Source: Anaerolineales bacterium
Lineage (GTDB): Bacteria > Chloroflexota > Anaerolineae > Anaerolineales > Anaerolineaceae
NCBI GenBank assembly: GCA_020060485.1
Contig: JAGVAB010000017.1
Coordinates: 1-17,978 of the forward strand
Reading direction: 5' to 3'
DNA: 17,978 bases
The notes below the pieces were generated by a model, which did not search any database, had not been told where the DNA came from, and was given only the letters and a program-made list of their open reading frames with translations. This document shows positions 4,419 to 7,016 of the stretch, in pieces. The number at the start of each line of letters is the position of its first letter. Positions within the stretch are counted from its first letter, which is position 1. The translations under genes were made by a program, and so were the position numbers.

Positions 4419-4913
4419 ATGCCGATCTTTGATCCCAATATGGTCGAATTTCTGAGCCGCGGCCCTGAACAGACCCGCCGTCTGGGGGCGCGTTTAGGAA
4501 CGCTGCTCGAACCTGGTGACGTTATTTGCCTGGCCGGTGACCTGGGGGCGGGCAAAACCACCCTGGTGCAAGGACTGGCCCAAGGCTGGGGTTCTCTGGA
4601 TGCAGTTTCCAGCCCAACCTTTGTGCTGGTCAACGTGTACCGCCGCCCGGACGGGCAAAATCTGCATCACCTGGATGCCTACCGCCTGCAGGATGCCCTT
4701 GAAGCCGAGGCGCTTGATCTCGACCAGATGCTGGATGATGGCGCCCTGGTCGTGGAATGGCCGGACCGCATTCAACTGGCATTGCCCCGGGAGCATTTGT
4801 GGGTTGAACTCGCCTGGGTAGCTGACGAACAGCGCCGGATGACCTTCAAACCTGTCGGCACACACTATGAACAGATGCTGGCTGTCTTTCGGCAGCGGTC
4901 TTTTGGAGGTTGA
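4419..4913 (+). CDS. tsaE: tRNA t6A biosynthesis ATPase TsaE
   Basis: A 164-residue P-loop ATPase that works with TsaB and TsaD to transfer threonylcarbamoyl to A37 of ANN-decoding tRNAs. The Walker A GDLGAGKTT is at residues 40-48. Family motifs follow: SSPTFVLVNVY (64-74), HLDAYRL (Asp86) and VVEWPDRI (111-118). The frame is open back to 4245, but homologous sequence begins near the ATG at 4419, and a TATAAT box directly upstream rules out the longer form. The stop overlaps the vicinity of the tsaB start (TsaE ends in GGT-TGA over the tsaB ribosome-binding site), indicating a tsaE-tsaB-rimI operon. Function is confident from motifs and neighbours. Confidence 0.93.
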   Translation: MPIFDPNMVEFLSRGPEQTRRLGARLGTLLEPGDVICLAGDLGAGKTTLVQGLAQGWGSLDAVSSPTFVLVNVYRRPDGQNLHHLDAYRLQDALEAEALDLDQMLDDGALVVEWPDRIQLALPREHLWVELAWVADEQRRMTFKPVGTHYEQMLAVFRQRSFGG

Positions 4914-4918
4914 GCTTT

Positions 4919-5584
4919 ATGTTATTGGCGGTGGATACTTCAACCCGTTGGATCGGCATGGCCCTCTACGATAGCGTGCAGATCAAGGGCGAAGTGATCT
5001 GGAAAACCAACAATCATCACACAGTAGAGCTGGCCCCCGCCCTGGAACAGCTTTTTTCGCGCTGTGCTGTCAGCAGTGCCGACCTGAAGGTGCTGGCAAT
5101 CGCTTTGGGACCTGGTTCTTTCACCAGTCTGCGCATCGGCCTTGCTCTGGTGAAGGGCATGGCTCTGGCCTTGCATGTGCCGGTGATCGGCGTTCCTTCG
5201 CTGGATGTGCTGGCCGCAGCCCAGCCGCTGCGTGATCTTCCTCTGGCAGCTGTCTTGCAAGCTGGCCGCGGCCGCCTGGCCCTGGTCTGGTACAAGGCGC
5301 ATAAAGGAAAATGGCAAGCCGACAGCCAGGCGGAAGTGGTGACCACCGCCACCCTGGCCGGGATGCTGCAACAACCTTCCCTGGTCTGCGGTGAATTGAC
5401 GGCAGATGACCGTCACCTTCTGTCCGCTAATCCCCATGCCATGCTTGTGCCGCCGGTGGATGCCATGCGCCGGCCTTCGTATCTGGCCGCCCTGGCCTGG
5501 AAACGCCACCAGGCGCGCCAGTATGATGATGCTGCCTCCCTGTCGCCGATTTATCTGCACCTGAACACCGGCACACCCTCCTGA
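4919..5584 (+). CDS. tsaB: tRNA t6A biosynthesis protein TsaB
   Basis: A 221-residue ASKHA-fold protein, the non-catalytic partner of TsaD in t6A tRNA modification. It starts with the characteristic LLAVDTSTRWIGMAL and carries the signature ALGPGSFTSLRIGLALVKGMA at about residues 64-84, where most relatives have GPGSFTGLR. An in-frame TTG lies at 4910, but ATG at 4919 is preferred because GGAGGT (4905-4910) is optimally placed for it. The gene lies between tsaE and rimI, the usual bacterial arrangement. TsaD is not in this window. Length is normal and I see no defect in the sequence. Confidence 0.92.
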   Translation: MLLAVDTSTRWIGMALYDSVQIKGEVIWKTNNHHTVELAPALEQLFSRCAVSSADLKVLAIALGPGSFTSLRIGLALVKGMALALHVPVIGVPSLDVLAAAQPLRDLPLAAVLQAGRGRLALVWYKAHKGKWQADSQAEVVTTATLAGMLQQPSLVCGELTADDRHLLSANPHAMLVPPVDAMRRPSYLAALAWKRHQARQYDDAASLSPIYLHLNTGTPS

Positions 5585-5603
5585 CCGCTCCGGAGGTGGT
5601 CCA

Positions 5604-6143
5604 TTGACATTCCATTTGCGCCCCATGACCCTGGAAGATGTACAGCAGGTGCACGCTCTGGATCAGCTCTGTTTCAGCCTCCCCTGGTCAGAGCAATCCT
5701 TTGCCTACGAAGTGGAACACAACCGCGTCTCCCGGCCTTATGTGATCGAGTGGAAAGGCACACAAGGAGAACATCGCCTGGTTGCCATGATGGTTTGCTG
5801 GCAGGTGATGGACGAGGTACAAGTGGCCACACTGGCTGTGCACCCCGATTTTCAACGCCAGGGCATCGCCCGCTGGCTGCTGGCGCATGGCCTGCTGCAG
5901 GCCGCCAGTGAAGGCGCCGACCACGCATTTCTGGAAGTGCGCATCGGCAACCTGTCTGCGCAAGCCCTCTATCGCCTGTTTGGTTTCGAGGTGGTCGGCC
6001 AGCGCAGCGGGTATTATCGCGATACCAATGAAGATGCCCTGCTGATGATCCTGGACTCTTTTGATCTTCCCCGCCTTCAAGCCTGGGCTGAACACAAGGC
6101 AGGAACTGCACCCGCACAGGAGAAAAATGATGACAACAACTGA
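5604..6143 (+). CDS. rimI: GNAT N-acetyltransferase, RimI-like
   Basis: A 179-residue GNAT-fold acetyltransferase resembling RimI, the N-terminal acetylase of ribosomal protein S18. It begins LRPMTLEDV. The acetyl-CoA loop is in VHPDFQRQGIARWLL, and the RimI-type C-terminal block is LEVRIGNLSAQALYRLFGFEVVGQRSGYY. The start is TTG at 5604, strongly supported by GGAGGTGG (5592-5599); the next in-frame ATG at 5625 has no ribosome-binding site and would cut into the domain. About 30 residues after the domain look unstructured and charged. It follows tsaB by 19 bp, a common tsaB-rimI pairing. Exact target protein is inferred from context. Confidence 0.87.
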   Translation: MTFHLRPMTLEDVQQVHALDQLCFSLPWSEQSFAYEVEHNRVSRPYVIEWKGTQGEHRLVAMMVCWQVMDEVQVATLAVHPDFQRQGIARWLLAHGLLQAASEGADHAFLEVRIGNLSAQALYRLFGFEVVGQRSGYYRDTNEDALLMILDSFDLPRLQAWAEHKAGTAPAQEKNDDNN

Positions 6144-6873
6144 AATTCTTGATGAAATCGCCCAACAGGTTGCAGTGTGCGAGAAGTGCGAGCTGTGTTT
6201 TTCCCGCAAGAATGCCGTGCCCGGGGCAGGCAATCCCTTTACCGAGATGCTCTTCATTGGCGAAGGGCCTGGATTCCATGAAAATGAGCAAGGACTGCCT
6301 TTTGTCGGCCGTTCCGGTCAGTTCCTGGATGAGCTTCTGGCGGGCTGCGGGTTGAAGCGTGCCGATGTCTTCATCACCAATGTGGTCAAATGCCGCCCGC
6401 CCGGCAACCGCGACCCGCTGCCAGAAGAACTTGCCGCATGCAGCCGCTATCTTGACCGCCAAATTGAGGCCATCAATCCCAGGGTCATCGTTACCCTGGG
6501 GCGCTATTCGATGGCAAAATTCATTCCCAATGCCAAGATCAGTGAAATTCACGGCAAACCGCGCTGGGTGCGCGGCCGGTTGATCGTGCCCATGTATCAC
6601 CCGGCGGCGGCGCTGCGCCTCGGTTCTCTGCGGGCGGTGATGAAGGATGATTTTGCCAGTTTGCCGCAATGGGTCGAACAGGCCCGCCAGTCTGCACCGG
6701 CTCAAGTTGCGTCCACTGAGGCGAACACCCATCCTGCAAACCCGCCCCTGGAAGACGACCCTGCCCAACTGGATATCTTTAGCGTTGCCCCGTCCGCTGC
6801 TCCGTCCCCGCCGCCGCAAGACCAGCCCGCCCCTGCCGAACCGGATGAACCCGCCCAATTGAGCCTGTTTTAG
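6127..6873 (+). CDS. Family 4 uracil-DNA glycosylase with clamp-binding-like tail
   Basis: A 248-residue Fe-S uracil-DNA glycosylase that removes uracil from DNA. Likely 4Fe-4S ligands are Cys18, Cys21, Cys89 and Cys105 (CxxC at the start, KCRPPGNRDP and a second pair later). Motif A is GEGPGFHENEQGLPFVGRSG (45-64) and motif B is MYHPAAAL (156-163). The catalytic domain ends near residue 188. A Pro/Ala-rich, probably disordered tail of about 60 residues follows, containing QLDIF (214-218) and ending in QLSLF (244-248), both fitting the bacterial beta-clamp-binding pentapeptide. AGGAG at 6118-6122 selects ATG 6127 or the adjacent 6130; the longer frame to 6061 lies inside rimI. The 17-bp overlap with rimI suggests translational coupling. 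Confidence 0.93.
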   Translation: MMTTTEILDEIAQQVAVCEKCELCFSRKNAVPGAGNPFTEMLFIGEGPGFHENEQGLPFVGRSGQFLDELLAGCGLKRADVFITNVVKCRPPGNRDPLPEELAACSRYLDRQIEAINPRVIVTLGRYSMAKFIPNAKISEIHGKPRWVRGRLIVPMYHPAAALRLGSLRAVMKDDFASLPQWVEQARQSAPAQVASTEANTHPANPPLEDDPAQLDIFSVAPSAAPSPPPQDQPAPAEPDEPAQLSLF

Positions 6874-6966
6874 TCCTGCGCTACCCCGCGCTGCGAGCCT
6901 GGCAGGTTCACCAGAGCCTTTCACAAAAGACTCCTCGATGAGCTTTATATACGTTTTGATCAAAAA

Positions 6967-6991
6967 GAGGCCGTCCCAAAAGGGCGGCCTC
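6967..6991 (-). terminator. Intrinsic terminator between convergent genes
   Basis: The stem GAGGCCG/CGGCCTC extends through a one-base bulge into CCC/GGG, closed by an AAAA loop. On the minus strand the stem is followed by TTTTTG, a good U-tract for the gene ending at 7017. On the plus strand the tail is T/C-rich (TTCGTCTTG), so it may also serve the uracil-DNA glycosylase operon less efficiently. Confidence 0.8.
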
Positions 6992-7016
6992 TTCGTCTTG
7001 TCCGTTCTTTTATTCT

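Follow-up and report, generated by a model that had tools for sequence, protein, structure and literature searches.

The stretch of DNA that we analyzed (hereafter the window; 17,978 nucleotides from a member of the Anaerolineales) carries on its forward strand a gene for a family-4 uracil-DNA glycosylase (UDG) at positions 6127 to 6873. Its reading frame opens with an ATG at 6127, codes for a product of 248 amino acids through 6870, and closes with a stop codon at 6871 to 6873. Three genes precede it on the same strand, namely, tsaE (4419 to 4913; PF02367), a tsaB-like gene (4910 to 5584; PF00814), and a rimI-like gene for a GNAT acetyltransferase (5604 to 6143; PF00583), the last of which overlaps the start of the UDG gene by 17 bases at its 3' end. 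Among 73 loci of relatives for which 2 kb or more of upstream sequence was available, homologs of these neighbors were found in 67, 68, and 63 cases, respectively, and all three lay upstream of the UDG gene in 62, as in the tsaE-tsaB-rimI-UDG cluster of the window (4419 to 6873). The UDG gene of Collinsella also adjoins tsaE. Past the gene, a GC-rich hairpin at about 6965 to 6993 was seen by eye and is not among the matches of the terminator scan.

By family model, motifs, and fold, the window protein is a family-4 UDG, and it is predicted to excise uracil. It scored 178.8 bits against TIGR00758, over the cut-off of 125.3, and matched PF03167 in Pfam, while its score of 208.3 against NF040953, a narrower equivalog model, lies below the cut-off of 250. 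The top Foldseek matches of its predicted structure were all UDGs (1l9g, 1vk2, 4zbx, and 1ui1), with an E value of 1.6e-23 and a TM score by target of 0.88 for 1l9g. Its sequence relatives in the PDB include the enzymes of Sulfolobus tokodaii (4zbx; E value, 1.6e-47), T. maritima (1l9g), and T. thermophilus (1ui0). The catalytic domain spans residues 1 to 189 (6127 to 6693, forward strand). In an alignment of 61 sequences, C18, C21, C89, C105, H158, and P159 were invariant; we take the four cysteines to be ligands of an Fe-S cluster and assume that the invariant Cys and His residues are family-defining for family 4. The domain also contains GEGPG (residues 45 to 49) and HPA (158 to 160), which presumably correspond to the GExPG and HP[AS] active-site motifs of family-4 enzymes.

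The catalytic domain is followed by a Pro/Ala-rich tail that is predicted to be disordered (residues 190 to 248; 6694 to 6870, forward strand). P, A, E, D, Q, and S together make up 76% of the tail. An AlphaFold2 model built with the 61-sequence alignment is confident for the catalytic domain (pLDDT block means of 93 to 98) and predicts no secondary structure from residue 191 onward (block means of 54 to 70). Two short motifs lie in the tail on the same strand: QLDIF at residues 214 to 218 (6766 to 6780) and QLSLF at residues 244 to 248 (6856 to 6870), the latter directly before the stop codon. They are separated by a linker of 25 residues (6781 to 6855). A sequence-only reading of this DNA had placed the tail and both motifs at these positions, which proved exact to the base, and had described both motifs as resembling peptides that bind the bacterial sliding clamp. 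QLSLF fits the published consensus Q-aliphatic-x-[L/M]-[F/L]. QLDIF departs from it and is the weaker match, its fourth residue being Ile rather than Leu or Met.

Conservation of the terminal motif among Chloroflexota

We scored as strict those proteins whose last five residues match Q[LM]xLF, and relaxed forms were recorded separately. Among the best 120 of 7,998 scored homologs, 114 carried the strict terminal motif and 119 a strict or relaxed one. The sole exception (P0051) stops at DEPTQ, at a place where its relatives run on into the motif. Some of the homologs from this and our other searches (P0002, P0004, and others) have been automatically named DNA polymerase in one source; they are apparently mislabeled proteins of the UDG superfamily. 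A second set comprised 80 loci kept of 182 found in a named genome collection, with titles that indicated Chloroflexi, Chloroflexota, or Anaerolineae-type organisms. Here the strict motif was present in 65 and the relaxed motif in 79, although one of the six search peptides lay in the tail and may have slightly favored tail-bearing matches. In the remaining locus, the motif is followed by EEQLDK. Finally, a family-4 match was found in 294 of 301 Chloroflexota genomes, 287 of them over the cut-off. From these we drew a phylum-wide sample of 90 (the 30 best matches and every second of the next 120 listed), which leans to high scores. It included 53 strict and 85 relaxed terminal motifs, two proteins with the motif slightly further inside, and three that lacked it: one was tail-less, and the others have QLSLSW and PTLFQAEA. 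The homolog, locus, and phylum-wide sets share members; L006 and L122, for instance, represent one genome.

Given the low complexity of the tail, the motifs could have been chance products of a sequence rich in Pro, Ala, and Gln. We assembled 291 sequences, of which two were dropped when the landmark was not found and 11 were duplicates, leaving 278 distinct tails. The consensus lay within three residues of the end in 260 of them, against a mean of 0.65 and a maximum of 3 in 200 shuffles. Together with the absence of the terminal motif from 238 family-4 enzymes retrieved with non-Chloroflexota queries (see below), the shuffles rule out a chance origin, to which we assign a negligible probability. 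The tails range in length from 10 to 88 residues (median of 38 over the 278), and the letters and length of the linker vary while the terminal motif is kept, most often as QLSLF and more rarely as QLSFF or QLSMF. Across 223 strict tails, flanking positions were variable (2.4 to 3.7 bits), with a preference for Pro at position -7 and frequent acidic residues directly upstream of the motif; entropies at the motif positions themselves are unusable as evidence, since the tails had been chosen for carrying it.

Mechanical extraction of open reading frames of at least 150 amino acids from the 80 loci yielded 849 frames, and all 65 that end in Q[LM]xLF encode the UDG. At the level of DNA, a terminal Q[LF]xLF-stop pattern was not enriched in three Chloroflexota genomes, with 35 matches versus 51 for a backward control. 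Thirty of the 35 were read; 24 had a true stop, and four ended frames of at least 150 amino acids, that is, the UDG in each of the three genomes and one frame of 203 residues. The latter (L254, in genome G006) has a Pro-rich stretch followed by QFSLF at its end, which makes it another putative bearer of a clamp motif at the C terminus.

Family-4 enzymes from elsewhere provided the negative controls. None of the best 120 homologs listed in a search with a Thermotoga query ended in the motif, nor did any of 118 new homologs among the matches listed for a mixed-alignment query (Collinsella, proteobacterial, Phycisphaerae, and other sequences). Names are given for a minority of this combined set of 238 and include Thermotogota, Phycisphaerae, Omnitrophota, Deltaproteobacteria, and Binatia; the controls, drawn from lists of the best 120, cover some but not all phyla. 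The nearest approaches were a faint resemblance at the end of one protein (P0234; QEPLF) and a QAPLL within the N-terminal extension of another (P0286). In place of a C-terminal tail, enzymes from the mixed search (P0246 to P0359) often have a long N-terminal extension that varies among them, and [DN]LF recurs in some of these extensions. The terminal motif was likewise absent from seven UDGs examined among 469 plasmid records (Collinsella, Mycetohabitans, Azospirillum, Tritonibacter, Methylobacterium, Enterococcus, and Halomarina) and from seven examined among the 86 records of a phage collection. These counts, above all 0 of 120 and 0 of 118, rule out the possibility that a clamp motif is general to family-4 UDGs.

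We then considered the remainder of the UDG superfamily in Chloroflexota hosts. Ten genomes yielded 27 superfamily matches, 17 of which were not the best family-4 match and were treated as paralogs. None of the 17 had the motif in its last 55 residues, and none of 13 family-1 Ung enzymes had it in its last 40. Relaxed matches occurred elsewhere in the open frames of five paralogs (L217, L219, L220, L221, and L222) and of one Ung locus (L240). Ung was found in 13 of 101 Chloroflexota genomes and is thus not widespread there, unlike family 4. A motif general to the superfamily in these hosts is ruled out by the same counts. The sequence-only reading had envisaged that QLxLF would be conserved in related Chloroflexota enzymes while the rest of the tail was not, and this is the pattern in our samples, with clean negative controls. 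Interpretation of the end of the tail as a putative terminal clamp motif is strongly supported by these comparisons.

The internal motif

The same reading had proposed two clamp motifs in the tail, which applies to the window UDG and a subset of its relatives but not to most tails. A second motif that fits the consensus was present in 34 of 75 long tails, far above the shuffled mean of 1.29 (maximum of 6 in 500 shuffles). The 203 short tails lacked one, so that most of the 278 have a single motif. QLDIF of the window UDG does not count among the 34 because of its Ile at position 4. Relatives have QIDLF, QMDLF, and similar sequences in the same place, of which QIDLF and QMDLF fit the consensus, and other two-motif UDGs have QASLL or QQSLL as the internal motif. 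When a wider rule was applied, 50 of 291 sequences had a second motif, and in 48 of these 50 the spacing to the terminal motif was 21 to 29 residues, compared with 15% expected from random placing. The 50 rows are not 50 independent cases, as many are close relatives.

In our trees, the window UDG groups with six other two-motif proteins (support of 99), and those with QASLL or QQSLL sit elsewhere. That the second motif arose twice independently was not established: a quick tree needs five changes, a single origin was not rejected (p-AU of 0.112), and the FastTree carries a long-branch warning. The position of the internal motif suggests how the longer tails may have arisen. In two-motif proteins, it starts 30 to 47 residues past a reference point in the catalytic domain, and the sole motif of short-tailed UDGs comes to lie near this position (median tail of 38 for all 278). 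Many matches in the locus search also pair the last residues of a relative with residue 218 of the window UDG. Because the internal motif sits near the place of the motif in short tails, the long tail may represent the short form extended by about 30 residues.

The terminal motif alone could bind the clamp, with QLDIF a weaker remnant or a spare site that has no role of its own. In keeping with this, 203 of 278 tails are short and carry a second motif in no case, and QLDIF, QASLL, and QQSLL all deviate from the best consensus, in contrast to the canonical terminal motif. In addition, a single cleft of the E. coli clamp is reported to be sufficient for viability (PMC3022782). The enrichment of second motifs over shuffled tails argues against it, as does their narrow spacing, with the reservation about close relatives noted above. 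We consider that the terminal motif acts alone with a probability just short of even. It is a tentative and somewhat less probable idea that the tether is bivalent in some Anaerolineae-type UDGs, including that of the window, such that two motifs about 25 residues apart would simultaneously fill both pockets of the DnaN dimer, lock the glycosylase on the ring, and exclude competing polymerases during uracil removal. The spacing of 21 to 29 residues in 48 of 50 two-motif tails is kept despite variation in the letters of the linker. Such binding is plausible because a dimeric clamp offers two pockets. A lone terminal motif is compatible with tethering of the enzyme to the clamp, since it bears on the second motif only.

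The sliding clamp as a candidate partner

To characterize the clamp side, we compared six Anaerolineae-type genomes that are related to the window but are not its own host. DnaN was found in five of the six, with a total of seven sequences. Two genomes yielded two DnaN-like clamps (L083 and L086 in G001; L084 and L087 in G002), three yielded one, and one yielded none; L087 is the most divergent. A search for DnaN in plasmids added nothing. When compared at the 18 residues of the E. coli binding pocket listed in section 11 of PMC11139829, nine were identical in all seven sequences (R152, L155, G174, R176, P242, N320, M362, P363, and M364), and five were nearly kept or similar (T172, L177, V247, Y323, and V360). 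Four differed, with H175 replaced by F, R246 by A, V, or Q, V344 by N, T, or R, and R365 by H or E.

Other proteins encoded by these genomes carry the same type of motif. In all six, MutS has QMALF, QLALF, or QLTLF near its C terminus, in the form Q[LM]xLFP and about 41 to 44 residues from the end (L188 to L193). MutS therefore resembles the UDG in having Q[LM]xLF near the C terminus; it differs in its distance from the end and in acting in mismatch repair. DnaE, represented by one sequence per genome (L178 to L181, L183, and L185; L182 and L184, which are partial second places, were not used), has QLAFF, QLSFF, QMSFF, QMSLF, QLPLF, or QISFF at one aligned internal place in all six, and QLSFF is common to DnaE and some UDG tails. 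This sharing of a motif type by UDG, MutS, and DnaE is the strongest indirect evidence that DnaN is the partner of the tail.

Short peptides at a C terminus can be recognized by more than one partner, and docking on DnaN is itself our inference, so it is conceivable that QLSLF marks the enzyme for docking on, or degradation by, something other than DnaN. The letters of the motif fit the published clamp consensus, and the MutS and DnaE of relatives use the same type. Moreover, some relatives have residues past the motif (QLSLFG and QLSLFEEQLDK), which a strict C-terminal degron would forbid. We regard a different partner as improbable. Instead, the tail very probably links uracil repair with DnaN, in the manner of the PCNA-binding motifs of archaeal and human enzymes. 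This assessment draws on the sequence of the tail, its predicted disorder, the conservation of the motif and its restriction within the sets that we examined, the motif type common to MutS and DnaE of relatives, and their largely conserved clamp pocket; from these we infer binding, recruitment, an effect on repair, and bivalency.

The tethering model can be outlined as follows. The catalytic domain (residues 1 to 189) would remove uracil, and the tail would be an added tether on an otherwise ordinary family-4 UDG. The disordered linker ends in QLSLF, which would insert into the hydrophobic pocket of DnaN. The terminal Phe, with its free carboxylate, would place that group near Arg152 of the clamp, as in E. 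coli Pol IV; both the role of a C-terminal carboxylate in clamp binding and the clamp consensus are described in PMC11139829. The enzyme would thereby be held on clamps at the replication fork or behind it, where uracil is incorporated as dUMP or forms in single-stranded DNA that is exposed. QLDIF, 25 residues upstream, might add affinity, possibly by occupying the other pocket of the clamp dimer.

There are precedents for interactions between uracil repair and sliding clamps. The sequence-only reading had noted that some archaeal and eukaryotic UDGs bind PCNA, and the literature agrees. Interaction of UDG with PCNA is described for Pyrobaculum, for the family-4 enzyme of Sulfolobus, and for Pyrococcus, and the activity of the P. 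furiosus UDG is enhanced by PCNA (PMC4858679). The archaeal case thus resembles that of the Chloroflexota in joining a UDG with a sliding clamp, although for the Chloroflexota the binding is predicted. The partner in archaea is PCNA, whereas the Chloroflexota enzymes have a DnaN-type pentapeptide at the extreme C terminus, which is sometimes doubled. Human UNG2 is a family-1 enzyme with an N-terminal PCNA motif. It is tethered to PCNA for the removal of misincorporated uracil (PMC8053108), which is comparable to the clamp tethering that we propose, with a eukaryotic clamp. Among bacteria, Nei2 and XthA of Mycobacterium tuberculosis are partners of the beta-clamp, which enhances the activity of Nei2 (PMC9690074). 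They are base-excision enzymes that use the clamp, and neither is a UDG; unlike the Chloroflexota enzyme, Nei2 acts on oxidized bases, and its motif is described as "peculiar" (PMC9690074). Nei2 is also mentioned in PMC11109965, where clamp-dependent action of NucS on deaminated bases is discussed. Furthermore, bacterial homologs of EndoQ have clamp-like motifs in their C-terminal region (PMC4858679).

Among the open-license papers listed in our literature searches, none dealt with a bacterial UDG that has a clamp motif. The main text of a 2024 review of the beta-clamp contains neither "uracil" nor "glycosylase" (PMC11139829), and the same is true of the main text of PMC2705854. The bacterial clamp interactome is described as incompletely defined (PMC13254535). 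The tail-bearing UDGs of the Chloroflexota and the naturally tail-less ones of Thermotoga form a clean pair with which the proposed tether could be tested. Clamp-tethered uracil repair has been described for Archaea and Eukarya, and the Chloroflexota UDG would be its bacterial counterpart. If this is true, the existence of a tether across a bacterial phylum would represent convergent evolution of replication-coupled uracil removal.
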